DNA from: Verrucomicrobium sp. GAS474
GTDB lineage: Bacteria > Verrucomicrobiota > Verrucomicrobiia > Methylacidiphilales > GAS474
Assembly: GCF_900105685.1 (NCBI RefSeq)
Contig: NZ_LT629781.1
Span: 248,001 to 312,000 of the forward strand
Reading direction: 5' to 3'
DNA: 64,000 bases
The notes under the pieces were generated by a model. That model saw only the letters and a list, made by a program, of their open reading frames with translations, made no database searches and was not told the origin of the DNA. Positions 53,447 to 64,000 of the stretch are shown here, piece after piece. The position numbers and the translations under genes were made by a program. Within the stretch, counting starts at the first letter, position 1. Every line of letters starts with the position of its first letter.

Positions 53447-56215
53447 CTACGGGGTCGCGGGAGGGACATAGGGCGTTCCCGACTCCACCGCTCCCCGGGC
53501 CAGAAGATACTGCGCCGCATCGGGCTGGCCCGCTTTCCTGGCGAAGTAGAGCGCCGTATGCCCTTCGCTATCGGCCCGGTTGATGTCGGCCCCATGGGCC
53601 AGCATCTGCGTGATCTTCGGATTCACGTCGCCGTAGGTGCAGGCCGCCATGAAGGGGGTGAAGCCCTTGTGGTCGGGCCGGTTCGGATCGGCCCCGGCCT
53701 GGAGCATCTGCTCCCGGAAATCCTCGTTCTCCCCGGCCAGCCACATCGTCGAGGCGTGGAGCGCCGTCCTTCCCGTCTTCGGGTTCTGGAAATTCACGTC
53801 GGCCCCCTGCCGCACCAGGAACCGCGCCGAATCGAAGCGGAACGAGCCGATCGCCAGGATCACCCCGTTGTCCCCTCCATCGGTCACCTCCCCGTCGACC
53901 GGGAATCCGGCGTGGATCAGGTCGTAGATCTTCCCCACGTCGCCCCGCTTGATCGCCTGCTTCATCTGCCACTTCGGATCGGGATTGTCGAAGGGAGCCT
54001 CCGTCACGCCGTTGTGCTGCAGCAGCTCGACGACGGCGTCGAATCCCGCCTCGCTCGCGATCCGCATCGGCGTCGCATCGGGCGGCCCCTTGCGGGGATC
54101 GACCCCCGCGAAGGCCATCTGCTGGATCCCCATCTCGCTCGACTTCCTCGCCGCCTCCTGCATCAGCGTCTGCCCGTCCTTCGTCGGCCGCCCCAGGTCG
54201 GCCCCGCCGACGATCAGCGCCATCCGCATGTAATCGGCCGTCATGCCGAACCACGTGAAGGTCCTCGGCACCGGCATCGTCCCCTGGGCGTTCGGCTTGC
54301 TCGGATCGGCTCCCGCCAGCAGCAGGACGACCAGGGCATGCTCCCGCTGATGGGAGATCGCCCGCAGAAGCGGCGTCTGCCCGTTTTTATCGAGGCCGTT
54401 CGGGTCGCCTCCCTTCGCCAGCGCCGCATCGAGCGCCGGAAGGTCGTTCCGCCAGGCCGCGTCCCCCAGCTCTTCCTGCACCGCCGCGTCGGCCGGGGCT
54501 TGGGCCGGGGCCGCCTTCGACGCCCTCTCCAACCGGACCGCCTCGACGAGGGCGACCATTTCCGGCTTCCCCAGCCGCTCCGCGAGGGCGAAGGGTCCCG
54601 CGTCGGGCCGCATCCCCTTCGGATCGAGCTCGGCTCCCCGGCGCAGCAGAAGGCGGGCCGATTCCACGTCGCCATTCCGGACCATCGCCCCCAGCAGCGT
54701 CTCCCCCGAGGCATCTCTCCCGTTCACATCCGCCCCCCGCAACAGCAGCAAATCCCGAATCAACTGATGTCCGTAGCTGTCATGCGTGAGCGCCTCCCGC
54801 TGCGCCGCCCGCCCCGTGGCGGGCGGTTCCTCCGAGAAAACTCGGGAGAGCGCGTTCCACAGCGCCGTCCGGCCCTTGGCGTCCTTCACCTCCATGTCGG
54901 CCCCGGAGACCAGCAGCACGTAGACATCGTTCCACCAGCCCTTCTCCGCCGCCAGCTGAAGCAGCGTCCTCCCCTCCCCGTCCCGCGCCCGGTCGATCCG
55001 GTCATGATGCCGGTCGAGGAGTTTCTTGAAGTCGACGTGGTTCCACTTCCCTTCCGTCTGAATCGCCGTGAAGAGCGCCGCGTCGGCCTCGCGATCCCGC
55101 CGGGCCTTCGCCGCCACGGCAAGGCCGCCAACGCCGCAGGCCACCAGCAGCACGAAGGCCGAAGTCAGCCAACGCCGCCGCGCCGTCTCGACCGGCGAAG
55201 GAGCGCTGCCGCCCGTCAACCGGCCGAGACGCCCCAGCAGCGATCCCCCGTCCGCCGCCATCGCCCACACCTCCGCCCCGCCCCGGCCCATCTCCAGCGC
55301 CGCCAAGGCCCGCGCGTAGGCCGCCCGGTCCCCGACCACCTCGAGCGCGATGTCGTCGCAGCAATGTTCCCGTTCCTCGCGCAGGCGGCGGCCGATCCAC
55401 CAGACCGCCGGGTGGTAGAAAAAGAGCGTCTCGACGACCACCTGGAACAGGTTCACCAGGTAATCGTGCCGCCGCACATGGCCGAGCTCGTGGGCGAAGA
55501 TCGCCTCGACCTGCGCGGGGGTCAGGCCGGAAAAGAAACTGACCGGGACGATCAACGTCGGGCGGAGCCACCCTGCCACCATCGGCACCTCGACCCAGGC
55601 CGACTCGAGCAGCGCCACCGTCCTCGCGATCCCCATCGTTCCGGCCAGCCGGTCGAGCCGTTCCTGCCAGCCCCGATCGGCCACCGGGAGGGCACGGTGG
55701 CGGATCAGCCAGAGGCGGAACCAGCCTCCCGCGAGGAAGAAACTGAGCGCCGCCACCCCTCCGAGCCAACCGAGGGCGGCGATCGCAAAGAAGGCGCCGC
55801 TCCCCTTCCCCGCCGCCATGGCACTCCCCTCCCCGAACGGCCCCACGCCCACGGCGGCCCTCTCCTCCGATACCGATGGCGAAGAGGCCGCCGCCGCATG
55901 CGGCACGGGGGAAGAGACGGAAGGCGGGAAAGGACGCCCTTCCTCCACGACCACCGCCACGGGAAGAGGCTGCAACCTCACCGCCCCGGAAGACGCGCCA
56001 CGCCACCCTGCCAGCGGGCAAAGGATGCAGGCCAGAAGAGCCCCGCAGAGCACCAGATAGCGGAGCGAAGCCGCCTCCCGGCGCAGGAGCCGCACCAGGA
56101 GCGCCGCAAGGCCGCCGATCACCGCCCCCTGCCAGAGGAAAGCGACCAGAACCCGGCCCAGTTCCCGCACCCAGGCCTCGCCACAGGCCGCGACATAAAG
56201 GGAAGAAAGGCTCAT
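53447..56215 (-). CDS. BlaR1/MecR1-like M56 peptidase fused to ankyrin repeats
   Basis: A 922-residue integral membrane sensor-peptidase. Helices at about 20-40, 50-70, 143-165 and one near 370 surround the zinc-protease motif HELGHVRRHDYLVNL (His242, Glu243, His246), the M56 signature. Instead of the penicillin-binding sensor domain of BlaR1, the region after about 390 consists of ankyrin repeats, for example GRTLLQLAAEKGWWNDVYVL, DASGETLLGAMVRNGDVESA, DHKGFTPFMAACTYGDVNPK and SEGHTALYFARKAGQPDAAQ. The protein would sense a signal through ankyrin contacts and cleave the BlaI repressor. It overlaps blaI by 4 nt (ATGA). The start at 56215 (MSLSSLYVAACGEAWVR) is supported by that junction. Confidence 0.85.
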   Translation of the reverse strand: MSLSSLYVAACGEAWVRELGRVLVAFLWQGAVIGGLAALLVRLLRREAASLRYLVLCGALLACILCPLAGWRGASSGAVRLQPLPVAVVVEEGRPFPPSVSSPVPHAAAASSPSVSEERAAVGVGPFGEGSAMAAGKGSGAFFAIAALGWLGGVAALSFFLAGGWFRLWLIRHRALPVADRGWQERLDRLAGTMGIARTVALLESAWVEVPMVAGWLRPTLIVPVSFFSGLTPAQVEAIFAHELGHVRRHDYLVNLFQVVVETLFFYHPAVWWIGRRLREEREHCCDDIALEVVGDRAAYARALAALEMGRGGAEVWAMAADGGSLLGRLGRLTGGSAPSPVETARRRWLTSAFVLLVACGVGGLAVAAKARRDREADAALFTAIQTEGKWNHVDFKKLLDRHHDRIDRARDGEGRTLLQLAAEKGWWNDVYVLLVSGADMEVKDAKGRTALWNALSRVFSEEPPATGRAAQREALTHDSYGHQLIRDLLLLRGADVNGRDASGETLLGAMVRNGDVESARLLLRRGAELDPKGMRPDAGPFALAERLGKPEMVALVEAVRLERASKAAPAQAPADAAVQEELGDAAWRNDLPALDAALAKGGDPNGLDKNGQTPLLRAISHQREHALVVLLLAGADPSKPNAQGTMPVPRTFTWFGMTADYMRMALIVGGADLGRPTKDGQTLMQEAARKSSEMGIQQMAFAGVDPRKGPPDATPMRIASEAGFDAVVELLQHNGVTEAPFDNPDPKWQMKQAIKRGDVGKIYDLIHAGFPVDGEVTDGGDNGVILAIGSFRFDSARFLVRQGADVNFQNPKTGRTALHASTMWLAGENEDFREQMLQAGADPNRPDHKGFTPFMAACTYGDVNPKITQMLAHGADINRADSEGHTALYFARKAGQPDAAQYLLARGAVESGTPYVPPATP

Positions 56216-56604
56216 GAGGAGAGGCGCTTGATCAGCCGTTCGATTTCCTTCAACTCCCCCGCCGTCGCCCGCTTCGTGGCGAGCGCCTGCATCACGAGGT
56301 TGGCCATCGATCCCCGGAAAGCCTTGTCGAGAATGCCGCTCAACAGCTGCCGCTGGGTCCGGTCCTCGGAACGGACGGCCCGGTAGAGATGGGCGTGGCG
56401 GGCCTCGTCGCGGACGACGAGTCCCTTCTCCGTCATGATCTGGAGGAGTTTCAGGACGGTGGTGTAGCCCGTCGTCTTCCCCTGGGCCGTCAGCGCCTCG
56501 TGGACTTCCTTCACCGTCGCCTCGCCCCGATTCCATAACTCCTGGAGAATCTGGAGTTCGGAATCGGTCGGTTCCGCCAGCGCCTTGCCGGGTTCTTTCT
56601 TCAT
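56212..56604 (-). CDS. BlaI/MecI-family transcriptional repressor
   Basis: A 130-residue winged-helix repressor: TDSELQILQELWNRGEATVK, then VHEALTAQGKTTGYTTVLKL (recognition helix), then MTEKGLVVRDEARHAHLYRA. The C-terminal dimerisation and cleavage region has DKAFRGSMANLVMQALATKR. I chose ATG at 56604 (MKKEPGKALAEPTD); earlier in-frame codons lie in the operator. It represses its own operon and is inactivated by proteolysis by the M56 partner. Two dyads upstream fit binding sites of the family. Confidence 0.88.
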   Translation of the reverse strand: MKKEPGKALAEPTDSELQILQELWNRGEATVKEVHEALTAQGKTTGYTTVLKLLQIMTEKGLVVRDEARHAHLYRAVRSEDRTQRQLLSGILDKAFRGSMANLVMQALATKRATAGELKEIERLIKRLSS

Positions 56605-56619
56605 GGGCCGATCTTTATC

Positions 56620-56654
56620 ACGAAGATCTTCGTAGAGTCTACGATAATTTTCGT
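56620..56654. promoter_or_regulatory. Tandem operator dyads upstream of blaI
   Basis: Two copies of ACGA-N6-TCGT: 56620-56633 (ACGA AGATCT TCGT) and 56641-56654 (ACGA TAATTT TCGT), 21 bp apart, so both face the same side of the helix. They lie 16 to 50 nt upstream of the blaI ATG. The pattern matches the paired dyads bound by BlaI/MecI dimers, though with a different core from TACA/TGTA. Confidence 0.75.
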
Positions 56655-56780
56655 AGATAAGGGCAAACAAAAAGTCCCGGCCGGCTTCCCTCTCCTTTGC
56701 GCCCTCTTTCCCCGCTCAATGCTATTGTAGGGTGCGACGAGAGGATTGCGCTTCCCCCGCCAACGCTTAAAACCTCGGGA

Positions 56781-57647
56781 ATGACTCGCGACACGCTTTT
56801 CAAGGGATCCCTGGCGATCGGGTTGGCCTTCCTCCTGAACGCCGCGCCGATCGTCCCGGCGCAGGCGGAAGAGACGCCGGAGATCCTCCCGGCCTGCGTC
56901 TCCCTCGACGGGAAGCCGCTGCCGGAGGGCAATCCCGTCGAGAAGGAATTGGTGAGGGATTTCCGCGCGCCCGCGCTTCTCCTCTACCGGACCCATGCCG
57001 CCACGCCGCTGGGGACCCTCCTTCTCCTTCCCGGCGGCGGGTATCGGGTGCTGGCCGTCGTCCATGAGGGGGAGAACACCGCCCGTTTCCTCAACGAGCA
57101 GGGCTTCGATGTCGCCATGCTCGAATACCACCTCCTGAGCGCGCCCGAAGTCCGCGGCCTCGACGAGGGCGCGGCGCGGCGGCAAACCATGGAGCTCGCC
57201 TTGGCCGACGCGCTGCAGGCGTTCCGGCTCGTCCGCTCGGGCGGCGCCGCGCTCGGCCTCCACGGCGGGCGGTTCGGCATCATGGGCTATTCGGCGGGCG
57301 GCCATCTCGCGACGCGGACCGTCCAGGCCCTCGACCCGGCCGAGCAGCCCGACGACCTCATCCTCGGTTATCCCGCCTACCTCGACAAACGCGACCTCGT
57401 CGTGACGCCGCCGCCGAAGTCGGGCCGCCTCTTCGTCGTGATCGGGGACAAGGACAACGAGGGCTGGATCAAGGGTGCCGAGGCCTACGCGGCGGCATGG
57501 AAGGAGGCGACCGGCCCCGCGACGTTCCAGCTCCTCCCCAACGTCGCCCACGGCTTCGGCGTGGCGGCGATCGCCCCGGCCAGCGCGGCCCATTGGACCG
57601 ACCTCCTCGCCGCCTTCCTCCAGGGGAAGGCGATGCCCCCGCAATAG
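56781..57647 (+). CDS. Exported alpha/beta-hydrolase, esterase-like
   Basis: A 288-residue protein with a signal peptide (MTRDTLFKGSLAIGLAFLLN, cut near AQA) and a BD-FAE/acetylxylan-esterase-like alpha/beta-hydrolase fold. LLLPGGGYRVLAVVHEGENT carries the oxyanion GGG, RFGIMGYSAGGHLATRTVQA holds the nucleophile Ser, FVVIGDKDNEGWIKGAEAYA the Asp, and NVAHGFGVAAIAP the His. It may remove acyl groups from polysaccharides or peptides in the periplasm. It is divergent from blaI (176-nt gap) and converges with the TauE-like gene; a link with the sensor operon is possible but not shown. The start at 56781 is set by the signal peptide. Confidence 0.8.
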   Translation: MTRDTLFKGSLAIGLAFLLNAAPIVPAQAEETPEILPACVSLDGKPLPEGNPVEKELVRDFRAPALLLYRTHAATPLGTLLLLPGGGYRVLAVVHEGENTARFLNEQGFDVAMLEYHLLSAPEVRGLDEGAARRQTMELALADALQAFRLVRSGGAALGLHGGRFGIMGYSAGGHLATRTVQALDPAEQPDDLILGYPAYLDKRDLVVTPPPKSGRLFVVIGDKDNEGWIKGAEAYAAAWKEATGPATFQLLPNVAHGFGVAAIAPASAAHWTDLLAAFLQGKAMPPQ

Positions 57648-58484: not shown

Positions 58485-60197
58485 TCAATAGGCGACCGTG
58501 ACGGCGATGTGGCCGCGGGAGCTGTCGGGATCGCCGAGGCCGGGATTCGTCAGCTGGAAGCCGTAGTCGAACTTGACCGAGACGAACTGGCCGATGGCGT
58601 AGCGGACGCCCGGCCCGATGCTGGAGAGATAGACGTTCGCGTCCTCGCCGGGGAGGAGGTGGACGTTGCGGACCCAGCCGTAGTCCCAGAAGGCAATGAA
58701 CTGGAGCGAATCGGAAGGCCCCTTCTCGGTGGCGACGCCCTTGATCGAGACGGGCGGCGTCCGGATCTCGTTCGTGATCTGGTAGCCGTTGTCGCCGTTG
58801 GCCTCGCGTTCCCGGTAGCCGCGGATCGCGTCGGCGCCGCCGATGCCGATCTGCTCGCTGCCGAGGAGGTTGGCGCTCGACTCCTGGAGGAGGCCCTTGA
58901 AGAACCAGGTGAAGTCGCCCGGAAGGCGCTGCGTCCGGTCGAGGGCGAGCTGGCCGTAGACGTAATCGTCCTGCGCCTTGTAGCGGGCGATCTGGAAGTC
59001 GCTCGTCAGGTTGTGGGTCCCGAGGCCGCCCGGGCTCATGTAGCAGTTGAGCAGGAGGTTCGTGAGGGCCGAGGGCTCGTGGTAGGTGCAGTTGTAGCTG
59101 ACGAGGAACTGGGAGATGTGGGTGTTCGTGTTGAAGATGTCGGCCCCGCCGAACTCGAGGTCGTTGTTCGACTCCTTGAAATCGTAGCCGACGCTCATGT
59201 TCTGGCTGTAGCGGCCGAGGGTGGGGAGGCCCGCGTTGTAGCGGCCGCTCGCCTGCCAGGCCTTGCCGACGAGGTTCGTCCCCGAGGGATGGCCGACGCT
59301 GTCAATGTAGCCGCCGAAGAGGGTGAACGTGTGCTGCCACGGCAGGGGGACGATGTAGCTCCCGGCGTGGGCCTGGAAACGCTCGAAGGCGTTGTCCGAG
59401 GTGAACTGGTAGTTCAGCTGCTGGTCCATCCCGAAGAGGTTCCCGTAGTTGAAGCCGAAGTTGTAGCGGTCCTGCCCCGTGATCTCGTTGCCGGTGTTGT
59501 CGTAGCCGGTGTAGAAGCGGGCGGGGAAGCGGTCCTCGGTCTTGAGGACGAGGTCGGTCGTCCCGAAGGTCGGCCCGGGGGCGAGCTCGACGTTGGAGGA
59601 GTGGAACGGATTCCGGTTCATGTCGTTGAGGTTCTCGACGACGCGGCTCTCCGAGATCCGGTCCCCGGGACGGAAGCCGGTGCGGTAGACGAGGATCTCC
59701 TCGGAGAACCACTTCTGCCCCTCGCTGCGGACCTGGTTCACGTGCCCCTCGACGACGGCGACCTGGAGGATGCCGTCGGTGACGTCCTGCTCCGGGACGA
59801 CGATGTCGACGACGGGGTGGTCGCTGTGGCGGTACTGGGTCGTGGCGTCGCGGGTGATCCGGTTGAGGGTGTCGAAGGTCGCCGGCTTGCCGAGGTAGTC
59901 CTGCTTCAGCTTCGCCTGGAACTTCTCGTCCTGGAGGAACGGGAGCCCCTCGGCCTCGATCCCGTCGAAGGCGGGGACGCCGCCGGGGACGACGGTCTTG
60001 CCCGCGACGAACTTGATGCCGCGCAATTTCTTCACGACGACCTCGGTGCCGCCCGGGACCGGCTGCGGCTCGGTCTCGGGAACCTCGACGTTCACCTTCT
60101 TGTCGGGCGCCGTGTGGGGCATGACGCGCTGGAGGTCCTGCGCGTGCGCGGAGAGAGCCAGGACGGGAAGGAGGGAAAGGAACAGGAACTTTTTCAT
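58485..60197 (-). CDS. TpsB/FhaC-type two-partner secretion transporter
   Basis: A 570-residue outer-membrane protein of the Omp85-related TpsB group. A signal peptide (MKKFLFLSLLPVLALSAHAQ) precedes POTRA-like domains (about 60-190, with HPVVDIVVPEQDVTDGILQV and VVEGHVNQVRSEG), then a 16-strand barrel with the conserved RGYRERE motif of loop L6 (about 445) and a C-terminal Tyr (HIAVTVAY). It should export the partner encoded just upstream on the minus strand (23-nt gap). The usual order is TpsB before TpsA; here TpsA is transcribed first. Confidence 0.88.
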   Translation of the reverse strand: MKKFLFLSLLPVLALSAHAQDLQRVMPHTAPDKKVNVEVPETEPQPVPGGTEVVVKKLRGIKFVAGKTVVPGGVPAFDGIEAEGLPFLQDEKFQAKLKQDYLGKPATFDTLNRITRDATTQYRHSDHPVVDIVVPEQDVTDGILQVAVVEGHVNQVRSEGQKWFSEEILVYRTGFRPGDRISESRVVENLNDMNRNPFHSSNVELAPGPTFGTTDLVLKTEDRFPARFYTGYDNTGNEITGQDRYNFGFNYGNLFGMDQQLNYQFTSDNAFERFQAHAGSYIVPLPWQHTFTLFGGYIDSVGHPSGTNLVGKAWQASGRYNAGLPTLGRYSQNMSVGYDFKESNNDLEFGGADIFNTNTHISQFLVSYNCTYHEPSALTNLLLNCYMSPGGLGTHNLTSDFQIARYKAQDDYVYGQLALDRTQRLPGDFTWFFKGLLQESSANLLGSEQIGIGGADAIRGYREREANGDNGYQITNEIRTPPVSIKGVATEKGPSDSLQFIAFWDYGWVRNVHLLPGEDANVYLSSIGPGVRYAIGQFVSVKFDYGFQLTNPGLGDPDSSRGHIAVTVAY

Positions 60198-60220
60198 GGG
60201 ACGCGAAGGCGAAGGGGAAA

Positions 60221-63200
60221 TCAATGGTTCGGGTCGGTATAGCTCATCGTGCTATGGGTGCCGCCGAAGGTCGGATGGCCGAAGGAGACCCCTTCGTTCG
60301 AGGTCGTGCTGATCGGCCTCACGTGCTGCAGCGCGCCGGGAAGGGTCGGGCTGTCGAAGATCGGGGCGTATTGCCGGTTGCCCTGGTCGCCCGTATCGAC
60401 CGGCGTGAAGGCGAGGCTGTGGGGCGTGCCGCCGTCGCCGCCAAGGCCCGCCGTCGAGCTGCCGATCGCCGAGGCCGTGCCGTTGCCGCCCTGGACCGGC
60501 GCCTGGGGCTGGAGCGCGACGGTGGGGAGGACGACGACCCCGATGCCGTCGACGTAGACCGCCGTACCGATCCCCGCCGAATTCGACTGGGCCGAGGAGA
60601 GGGCGGCCTTGTTGGCGTTGGCCGTCGCATTCGGATCGCCGCTGAGCGCGTGGTTCCCGCTCCCGCCGCCGCCCCCGCCGCCGCCGCTGACGATGAAGGT
60701 GGGGAGGCCGGTGCCGGTCAGGTTCCAGACCGTGCTGCTCTGCCAGGCGGAGGAGGTCCAGTTCGTCGTCGTGCTGTACCAGGAGGAACTGCTCGAGTCG
60801 CTCGCGAAGGTGCCGCTGTAGCCGCTGTCCCCGGCGGTCGCGCCCGAGACGCTGCTCGACGTCCCGATGGAGGAGGAGATGCCGCCCGTGCTGTAGGACC
60901 CCGAGCCGTAGTAGCTGGTCCAGATCCCGGCGTAGGCCGTCGTCGTCGTCGTGGTCGTCGTCCCGGCGGAGGTGCTCGTCGTGCTGCCGAGGGAGACCGC
61001 CCCGGTGGTGTCGGTCGAGGTGGTGCTGGAGCTGCTGCCGCTCGAGCTGATCGTCGTCGTCGTGAGGCTGGTGTTGACCGAGAGGTTGTTCCCGACCAGC
61101 GCCCCCGCGTAGGTCGCCGTCCCCCACGAGCTGGAACCCGAGGTGCTGCGCAGCGTTCCCGCGTTGAACGAGTTCTCGATCAGGCCGTCGCTCTCGAGGG
61201 TGCCCACGAGGCCGCCGAGATAGTTCCCCGTCTGGCCGGTGGTGATCTGGATGAGACCCGAGTTGTAGGTGTAGTTGATCGTCCCGTGGAGATCGCCCAC
61301 CACGCCGCCGACCATCCCGGCCCCGCTGACGGTCCCGGTGTTGTAGGAGTTGGTGATCGTCGAGCCGTTCGCCGCGATGGCCGCGAGGCCGCCCGCGACG
61401 AGGGTACCGGTGACCGCGCCGCTGTTGACGCCGTGGGTGGCCGTGCGGGCCGCGTCGAGGTAGCCGAAGAGGCCGCCCGCGTTGTCGCCGTTGACCGCGC
61501 CCGCGTTGCTGAGATTGGAGACCGTGCCGCTCCCCGAGAGGTAACCGAAGATGCCGCCCGCGTAGGCGCTCCCGCCCGAGGCGGTGACGGTGCCGGCGGC
61601 GTTGTTCGTGAGGCTCGAGAGAGCGCCGTTGGAATCGACGTAACCGGCGAGGCCGCCGGCGTAACCGCCCGTCCCGGAGATGACGCCCGAATTCGACCCG
61701 GTGACCGTGGAGGTACCGGTCAGGTAACCGACGAGGCCGCCCGCCGTCCCGCCGCTGACGCTCGCGTTGTTCGAGCCGGAGACGCTCGTCGTCCCCGCGG
61801 CGACGCCGACGAGGCCGCCCGCGTTGCTGCTCGCCCCGGAGGTGCTGGTGACGGTGTTCGTGCTCCCGCTGAAGCTGACGCCGCTGATCTTCGCCGAATC
61901 GGCGTAACCGATCAGGCCGCCGATGTTGACCGTACCCGTCGTCGCCGTCGAGGTGACCGAGATGTTCTGGAGGGTAACGTTCGAGACGGTGCCGCCCTGG
62001 ACGTAACCGAAGAAGCCGAGGTAGTTGCTTCCGTTGCCGCCGCTCACGACGATGTTGCTGATCGTCTTGGAATTGCCGTCGAAGATGCCGGTGAAGGGCG
62101 TCGTGCTGCTCCCGATGGGAGTCCACGAGGCCGAGGCGAGGTCGATCGACTGGTTGAGGGAGTAATTCGCGGCGGCCGCGCCGCTGGCGTTCGCGTTGAT
62201 CGCGGTGGCGGCGGCGGTGAGGTCGGACGCCGTGTTCACCAGCATGTAGGCGGTGAGGCTTCCGGCGCCGGCGTTTGAATAGCTGGTGATCGGAGAGGCG
62301 TAGCTGACAGGGTCGTAGTAGATCGTGACTTTTCCCGCCCAGTTGATCGTCCCGTTGTTCGTCACCGTGCCGCCGCCGCCGAGGGCGTTGCCGACGGCGA
62401 GGGTCGAGGCGGAAGTCGAGGTGGCCGGGGACGGGAGGTTCGCGCCATAGGCCATGCTGTCGGCCCGGAGGGTGAGCGTGCCGGAGCCCGTGTTCGCGAT
62501 AGTGATGCCGGTGTTGATCGTGATCGCCCCCTGCGCGGCGAAGATGAGATTGGCCCCTGTGTTGAGGGTGAAGCTGTCCGCAATGACGATGCCGCCGAAG
62601 TCGTTCGCGTTCAACTGGTAGTCCTTCGTCTGGACAGTGAGAGTTCCATTCGTTCCCAGGGAGTTCTGGATCGTCTCCCAGGAGAGGACCGTCTTGCCCG
62701 AGGTGCTGGCGCTGCCGGAGGTGCTGTAGATCGTGAGATCGGACGGATCGAGGAGGAGCGAACCGGCCACGCCCTTCGGGGCGAGGGTGTTCACGGTGCC
62801 CTCGAAGTCGAAGCCGGTGACGCCGGAGACCTCGACCGCGCCGCCGTTGCCGCCGTTCGGGCCGCCCCGCGCCGTGATGGCCCCCGAGAAAGCCGTCCTT
62901 CCGTCGGCCCAGACGACGACGGTGCCGCCGTCGCCGCTGTCGGTCGCGTCGGCATGGATCACCGCCCCGGCGTCGATCGTCGTGTTCGTCGCGTTCTCGA
63001 GGGTGGCGTCCTCGCCCTGCGCACCGCCGCCGATCTTCGCCGTCCCGCCGCCGTTCGCGCCGCTGACGTCGACGACCGAGGTCGAGGCGAGGTGGACGTC
63101 GTGGCCGGTGATCGAGACCTCGCCGCCCTTCGTCCCGTTCGTCGCGATGATCGTCCCGCTGTTCTGCGCCGTCCCGCCCGAGGCGGTGATGCGGACCCGG

Positions 63201-64000
63201 CCGCCGACGCTCGAAACGCCGGTGGCGCGGATGAGGCCGGTGTTGTTCACCGCGAGGCTGTAGATGTTCCCATTGGCGACGAGTTCGGCCTTCAGGGCCG
63301 CGATCGTCCCGGTGTTCTCGACGCCGATGCCGTCCCGGGCGCCGGTGTCGTAGCGGACCGAGACGCGGTTGTCGCCGCCCTCGGCGAGGGTCACCTGGGT
63401 CCCGGCGGCGAGGCCGACGGTCCCGTTCGGTGCCTTGAGGACGCCGCCGTTCGAGACATGCTTCGCGATGAGGAAGATATCGCCGCCGTTGGCGGTGATG
63501 GTGCCGAGGTTGACGATGGTTGCGTTCGAGTTCCCGGCGTAGGTGCCCGCCGAGGGGGAACCGCTGACGAGATCGAGGGTCGACGCGGTGAAGCTCTGCG
63601 TGTTGACGACGCCGCCCGGCCCGATGAGGACGCCGTTCGGGTTGATGAGGATGATGTTGCCGTTCGAGCTGAGGGTCCCGTAGATGTTCGAGACGTTGCC
63701 GCCGGTCACCTTGTTCAACACCGTGCTGCTGCTATTGGGCTGGTTGAAATTCGTCGTGAACCCGGCGCCGATCGAGAAATCGGTCCACCCCATCACCGTC
63801 TGGGCGGTCGTCGTCGTGACGTTCATCGTGTTGCCGCTGGTGCTGATCGTCCCCGCGCCCGCCTGAAAGGTCCCGCCCGTCGGCAGATCGGTGGCATGGG
63901 AGGAACTGGGAGCCGCGAGGACCCCGACCAGCGCGAGCTGGAGCATCGCCGCGTAGCGGCGGAAACCGGCGTGCGAGAAGACCCGAACCGATGAAGCGTC
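60221..64000 (-). CDS. TpsA-type secreted adhesin/haemagglutinin (open at right edge)
   Basis: At least 1259 residues are open to the edge. An in-frame ATG at 63946 (MLQLALVGVLAAPSSSHATD) could start it, but the frame continues with SHAGFRRYAA before it, so a longer signal with its start outside the window is possible. The N-terminal haemagglutination-activity domain (about 20-260) has ILINPNGVLIGPGGVV. A beta-helix with Asn/Gly/Thr repeats follows, including GLUG-like copies (GGLVGYLTG, GGLAGYVDSN, GGIFGYLSG). A Ser/Thr tract (about residues 960-1030) with TTTTTTT runs precedes the C-terminus SMSYTDPNH. It is exported through the downstream TpsB. Confidence 0.85.
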   Translation of the reverse strand, partial: DASSVRVFSHAGFRRYAAMLQLALVGVLAAPSSSHATDLPTGGTFQAGAGTISTSGNTMNVTTTTAQTVMGWTDFSIGAGFTTNFNQPNSSSTVLNKVTGGNVSNIYGTLSSNGNIILINPNGVLIGPGGVVNTQSFTASTLDLVSGSPSAGTYAGNSNATIVNLGTITANGGDIFLIAKHVSNGGVLKAPNGTVGLAAGTQVTLAEGGDNRVSVRYDTGARDGIGVENTGTIAALKAELVANGNIYSLAVNNTGLIRATGVSSVGGRVRITASGGTAQNSGTIIATNGTKGGEVSITGHDVHLASTSVVDVSGANGGGTAKIGGGAQGEDATLENATNTTIDAGAVIHADATDSGDGGTVVVWADGRTAFSGAITARGGPNGGNGGAVEVSGVTGFDFEGTVNTLAPKGVAGSLLLDPSDLTIYSTSGSASTSGKTVLSWETIQNSLGTNGTLTVQTKDYQLNANDFGGIVIADSFTLNTGANLIFAAQGAITINTGITIANTGSGTLTLRADSMAYGANLPSPATSTSASTLAVGNALGGGGTVTNNGTINWAGKVTIYYDPVSYASPITSYSNAGAGSLTAYMLVNTASDLTAAATAINANASGAAAANYSLNQSIDLASASWTPIGSSTTPFTGIFDGNSKTISNIVVSGGNGSNYLGFFGYVQGGTVSNVTLQNISVTSTATTGTVNIGGLIGYADSAKISGVSFSGSTNTVTSTSGASSNAGGLVGVAAGTTSVSGSNNASVSGGTAGGLVGYLTGTSTVTGSNSGVISGTGGYAGGLAGYVDSNGALSSLTNNAAGTVTASGGSAYAGGIFGYLSGSGTVSNLSNAGAVNGDNAGGLFGYLDAARTATHGVNSGAVTGTLVAGGLAAIAANGSTITNSYNTGTVSGAGMVGGVVGDLHGTINYTYNSGLIQITTGQTGNYLGGLVGTLESDGLIENSFNAGTLRSTSGSSSWGTATYAGALVGNNLSVNTSLTTTTISSSGSSSSTTSTDTTGAVSLGSTTSTSAGTTTTTTTTAYAGIWTSYYGSGSYSTGGISSSIGTSSSVSGATAGDSGYSGTFASDSSSSSWYSTTTNWTSSAWQSSTVWNLTGTGLPTFIVSGGGGGGGGSGNHALSGDPNATANANKAALSSAQSNSAGIGTAVYVDGIGVVVLPTVALQPQAPVQGGNGTASAIGSSTAGLGGDGGTPHSLAFTPVDTGDQGNRQYAPIFDSPTLPGALQHVRPISTTSNEGVSFGHPTFGGTHSTMSYTDPNH

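Follow-up and report, generated by a model that had tools for sequence, protein, structure and literature searches.

In resistant staphylococci, penicillin is sensed by a membrane protease of the BlaR1 type, and to our knowledge BlaR1 has been studied almost solely as a penicillin sensor. The BlaR1-BlaI and MecR1-MecI systems of staphylococci and bacilli place a BlaI-family repressor beside a four-helix zinc protease of the M56 family. BlaR1 has both its N and C termini outside and its zinc site facing the cytoplasm; the Staphylococcus aureus protein carries HExxH and ExxxD motifs (H201-E242), and its direct cleavage of BlaI is established in that species (PMC9834060). Operators of BlaI, MecI and CopY are of the TACA/TGTA type (PMC7253601), and in the bla divergon they occupy the stretch that separates the target gene from blaI-blaR1 (PMC3305447).

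A BlaI-M56 pair with a different outer part lies in the genome of Verrucomicrobium sp. GAS474, a single contig of 3.76 Mb, of which we analysed a window of 64,000 nucleotides (G000:C1:248001-312000; positions below are those of the window unless given as genome coordinates). The blaI-type gene (56212 to 56604, minus strand) encodes a repressor of 130 residues, P0002, which matches Penicillinase_R (PF03965) at 87.2 bits against a cut-off of 22.6. It overlaps by 4 nt (ATGA) a second minus-strand gene (53447 to 56215) for P0001, a protein of 922 residues that matches Peptidase_M56 (PF05569; 103.5 bits, cut-off 31) and, in six stretches, Ank_2 (131.2 bits). An earlier note, made from the DNA letters, had read this locus as a BlaI-M56 sensor whose receptor part is an ankyrin array; all of these Pfam matches exceed their curated cut-offs, in agreement with that reading. 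The span given in the note is exact: the stop codon of the M56-ankyrin gene ends at 53447, and blaI begins at 56604. P0002 contains no cysteine, and thus lacks the C-terminal Cys-X-Cys of the CopY copper repressors; it scores 38.6 bits against the CopY_TcrY model, for which the cut-off is 122. A frame shift or an assembly fusion was rejected as the origin of the M56-ankyrin gene because a distant full-length relative of P0001 has the identical domain order.

The protease shares its zinc motifs and their spacing with those of the staphylococcal and bacillar systems. Its Pfam-matched part covers residues 131-320 (55256 to 55825, minus strand) and holds the zinc motif HELGH at residues 242-246 (55478 to 55492, minus strand) and, as located by comparison with the BlaR1 motifs (PMC9834060), the ExxxD motif EHCCD at residues 283-287 (55355 to 55369, minus strand). 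H242, E243, H246, E283 and D287 are invariant in an alignment with 57 relatives (A2), and the ExxxD motif follows the first zinc histidine by 41 residues, which equals the H201-E242 spacing in BlaR1. An AlphaFold2 model of P0001 has pLDDT values above 90 over most of residues 20-70 and 140-310, and its best structural matches are five BlaR1 cryo-EM entries (Z 15.3 to 18.8, 233-250 residues aligned), among them S. aureus BlaR1 (8exs_A), whose residues 1-291 align with P0001 residues 19-327 (Z 18.8, rmsd 3.9, 250 residues aligned). The match covers the membrane and protease parts, and the poorly modelled ankyrin part accounts for low TM-scores in Foldseek. On the strength of this model, P0001 has a BlaR1-type membrane and protease fold.

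Four strongly hydrophobic segments of P0001 (residues 22-40, 51-69, 143-161 and 350-368) correspond to the four helices of BlaR1. The fourth (55112 to 55168, minus strand) has a hydropathy of 2.2, compared with 2.47 in the distant relative, and falls within a helix that spans residues 342-387 of the model; the relative has the same four helices, plus weaker segments within its protease domain. Helix 4 is predicted to carry the chain across the membrane ahead of the ankyrins. The order and number of the helices, the homology to BlaR1 and the position of the ankyrins C-terminal to helix 4 together place the array, by prediction, outside the cytoplasm, as is the sensor of BlaR1, and this is our answer to the topology prediction that the earlier note had proposed as a check. 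Ankyrin proteins are mostly intracellular, and helix 4 carries positive charges at both of its ends, either of which would suit an ankyrin part that remains in the cytoplasm as a docking platform for substrates, with no role as a receptor. We consider such an arrangement very improbable: with four hydrophobic helices, and with a match to BlaR1, whose two termini are both outside (PMC9834060), the C-terminal part should lie across the membrane from the protease.

The ankyrin array, recognised by Pfam and in the model, extends from about residue 393 to residue 912 (53480 to 55039, minus strand). Its approximately 520 residues, earlier estimated at roughly 500, are modelled as about 14 pairs of helices and also match ankyrin proteins of the PDB by sequence. 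Model confidence is low in this part, and a pLDDT of 41, obtained when it was folded alone without relatives, is uninformative. Pfam searches of P0001 up to E = 1 detected no transpeptidase or beta-lactamase family, so that the absence of a penicillin-binding domain noted earlier holds for the whole protein, and P0001 scores 84.4 bits against the NCBI model blaR1_generic, with a cut-off of 400. Judged by these matches, the BlaI-M56 pair lacks the defining feature of the beta-lactam sensors, while retaining those of the M56 and BlaI families. Neither a beta-lactamase nor another resistance gene is attached to the operon: the neighbours scanned encode a lipoate ligase, an alpha/beta hydrolase, a TauE transporter and an ShlB-type transporter, as the earlier note had said of beta-lactamases, and the sole class A beta-lactamase-type match in the genome lies about 2.5 Mb away; the genome-wide pattern lists described below contain no operator match in its vicinity. 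The ShlB/FhaC-type transporter gene (58485 to 60224, minus strand) and a gene for a haemagglutinin-like exoprotein (60221 to 63946, minus strand) form a two-partner secretion pair at 58485-63946.

The best relative of P0001 comes from another family of the same order (G015:C156) and is 44% identical over residues 6-911, with the architecture kept; full-length relatives are absent from two other genomes of the genus (G001 and G002). Identity to this relative is 34% in helices 1-2 and the outer loop, 50% in the protease and 20% in the helix-4 segment, and rises along the ankyrins from 31% (residues 381-580) through 47% (581-780) to 53% (781-922). The C-terminal part of the array is therefore conserved to much the same degree as the protease, in keeping with binding of a specific partner, albeit on the thin basis of two sequences. 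Directly downstream of the M56-ankyrin gene of the relative lies a gene (L133:6812-9790) for a protein of 992 residues with six carboxypeptidase-regulatory-like domains, a domain also found in the outer part of a GAS474 paralogue of P0001. Nearby open reading frames that by eye resemble a relaxase/helicase and a tyrosine recombinase (L133:10208-13548) hint at mobility.

P0001 is one of several M56 proteins in the same cell. The genome encodes four BlaI-M56 pairs that share the switch core and differ in their outer parts, which match DUF4019, ankyrins, carboxypeptidase-regulatory-like domains or, in one pair, no Pfam family. Among 126 distinct M56 genes gathered, 121 adjoin blaI, including all nine that encode ankyrins; eight of these nine are from Verrucomicrobiota and one is from a member of the Phycisphaeraceae (L073, Planctomycetota). 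Pfam searches of 83 outer domains found carboxypeptidase-regulatory-like domains (15), ankyrins (9), secretin (5), transpeptidase (3) and HEAT (3), among others, in a sample that was gathered with P0001 as the query and whose shares are therefore not natural frequencies. When the ankyrin label is mapped on a tree of 119 M56 domains, six changes are required, of which well-supported branches force at least three, although the tree was built by a quick method and has some long branches, and three changes may equal one gain and two losses. These changes suggest that ankyrins were probably joined to the M56 core more than once, or were gained and lost. M56 outer domains are freely exchanged, and the earlier description of the penicillin-binding sensor as 'replaced' by ankyrins needs correcting: that P0001 has no such sensor stands, whereas the word itself is misleading.

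Two tandem dyads precede the operon, in the region 13-53 bp before the start of blaI. Dyad 1 (TCTACGATAATTTTCGTAGA, 56638 to 56657) has a perfect TACGA-N6-TCGTA core, and dyad 2 (ATCACGAAGATCTTCGTAGA, 56617 to 56636), placed 21 bp from the first, has one core mismatch. More than one operator upstream is a trait shared with BlaR1-BlaI and MecR1-MecI; the sequence differs from the TACA/TGTA of BlaI, MecI and CopY. The dyads mentioned in the earlier note are real, and as a family-wide feature they go far beyond chance. Of 120 related blaI-M56 promoters, 70 have the exact motif and 71 a tandem pair, mostly with a spacing of 21-22 bp, where shuffling leads one to expect 0.02 and 0.05. The promoters are interrelated, so the shuffled figures overstate independence, but this leaves unaffected the concentration of the sites at BlaI starts: related loci totalling 854 kb contain 70 exact sites, and 67 of these fall within 250 bp upstream of such a start. 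With so large an excess at related promoters, autoregulation by BlaI through these predicted operators is well supported. The wider consensus is TACGAA-N4-TTCGTA, which, often in tandem at 21-22 bp, stands before blaI-M56 pairs with any type of outer domain in Planctomycetota, Acidobacteriota, Verrucomicrobiota, Myxococcota and others (L043-L122). Five of the nine ankyrin versions belong to a distant M56 group and lack the TACGA dyad.

A regulon search with the dyads, likewise put forward in the earlier note, found paired sites at only two places in the whole genome, the blaI-M56-ankyrin operon and a paralogous blaI-M56 operon at 3.227 Mb. The repressor of the paralogue has a DNA-binding region very similar to that of P0002, and cross-regulation between the two operons is predicted as likely. 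The paralogous operon (genome coordinates G000:C1:3226156-3227519; L007) encodes the carboxypeptidase-regulatory-like outer domain, and its two dyads, of the same operator type, are 35 bp apart. There is no general excess of sites: TACGA-N6-TCGTA with at most one mismatch occurs at 19 places in the genome, against 28 for the reversed control. A longer pattern of 20 bases with three mismatches gave 46 matches, against 39 for its control. Outside the blaI promoters there are two exact matches, both rejected: one falls within a gene for a ribosomal protein, the other in a repeat that has no promoter close by. A single one-mismatch site at genome position 1882010, upstream of an open reading frame, was not accepted as a target. 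Two inverted motifs that are almost identical (CCTACGATGCCCATCGTAGA and a variant differing by one base) occur 643 bp apart at G000:C1:2424301-2424320 and 2424944-2424963, in a repeated stretch that does not adjoin a promoter.

The restriction of paired operators to blaI-M56 operons in this genome speaks for the main rival to the explanation that we favour below, in which the array is both sensor and effector, acting as a periplasmic binder or enzyme inhibitor, and BlaI-M56 only tunes its own level to that of the target. The GAS474 operon likewise consists of just two genes, and no conserved neighbour was found across the ankyrin-type M56 genes. In Clostridium thermocellum, BlaI_1845 similarly regulates essentially its own blaI-M56 operon and needs two inverted repeats, although the operator sequence is different there and the BlaR1 protein is described as a beta-lactam sensor (PMC8457756). 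The Bdellovibrio protein Bd3460 provides a precedent for ankyrin repeats outside the cytoplasm, as predicted for GAS474, that bind proteins, in that case binding and inhibiting DD-endopeptidases (PMC4686830). Bd3460 is, in contrast to P0001, a small exported protein with few repeats, no fusion to a protease and no sensor role, and inhibitor activity of the GAS474 ankyrins would be an analogy with it. Weaker single sites could also still be targets of BlaI, and a divergent hydrolase gene shares the intergenic region; we regard a purely self-tuning effector as unlikely.

It is also possible that the switch controls this divergent gene (56781 to 57647, plus strand), which encodes an alpha/beta hydrolase (Abhydrolase_3, 39.6 bits in Pfam) with a signal-peptide-like start. 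Such an arrangement would be a variant of our favoured explanation that names an output gene, and would resemble the bla divergon (PMC3305447): blaI and the divergent gene have the dyads between them, and the gene divergent from the blaI of the G015 relative also encodes a signal-peptide-like start. Against this, about 124 bp separate the end of the dyads from the hydrolase start, no promoter of the sigma-70 type was detected there, and the corresponding gene beside the relative has no Pfam match and so is not recognisably related to the hydrolase. Co-regulation of the hydrolase is possible but unproven, and we hold an output of this kind to be doubtful.

The explanation that we favour, and consider probable, is a BlaR1-like protease switch with an outer ankyrin receptor, whose ligand, perhaps a protein or peptide, sets off cutting of BlaI. 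BlaI dimers on the two tandem dyads would repress the blaI-M56-ankyrin operon. The M56 protein would have four membrane spans, a zinc protease on the cytoplasmic side and an ankyrin array on the outer side. Binding of a protein or peptide to the ankyrins, or the loss of a bound partner, may shift the membrane helices and activate the protease, which would then cut BlaI and derepress the operon. This reading draws on the sequence for the two genes, the protease motifs and fold, the helix count, the identity of the ankyrins, and the operators and their family-wide conservation; the topology, the cleavage of BlaI and the direction of signalling are taken from BlaR1, and the type of ligand is a guess. 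A protein ligand, as suggested before, is plausible, since a large outward array of ankyrins instead of a penicillin-binding domain points to an input that is probably a protein or peptide outside the membrane. The intact motifs, the structural match to BlaR1, the cognate operators and the absence of a penicillin-binding domain support a proteolytic derepression switch with an input other than a beta-lactam, as the earlier note had proposed.

Such a receptor might nevertheless report beta-lactams or cell-wall damage in an indirect way, if the protein that it binds were a penicillin-binding protein or an enzyme of the cell wall. The binding of DD-endopeptidases by the Bd3460 ankyrins (PMC4686830) and the response of Bacillus BlaI to a peptidoglycan dipeptide (PMC3305447) would agree with this, whereas no cell-wall or beta-lactamase gene is present in the operon or among the scanned neighbours, and we think it improbable. 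Indirect sensing of the cell wall and control of the divergent hydrolase can both be compatible with an ankyrin receptor on a BlaR1-like switch, and the likelihoods that we attach to them are not exclusive.

A search of the open-access literature, with subscription journals outside its scope, found no paper on BlaR1 or M56 proteins with ankyrins; the architecture may already be listed in databases. We offer as a speculation, with little confidence, that bacteria repeatedly built ankyrin receptors for proteins on the BlaR1 core as self-regulating switches with exchangeable ligands, in which the outward array would be both sensor and effector and the switch would control only blaI-M56 operons. 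More generally, outer domains of many kinds besides ankyrins are joined to the same core, and the operator and the repressor remain constant in most pairs. BlaI-M56 therefore looks like a receptor system that is general and modular, in the manner of histidine kinases, whose sensors are likewise exchanged. Since the operator is shared, regulons of poorly studied phyla become predictable from sequence, and the modular build suggests that new sensors could be made in laboratory strains by swapping outer domains.
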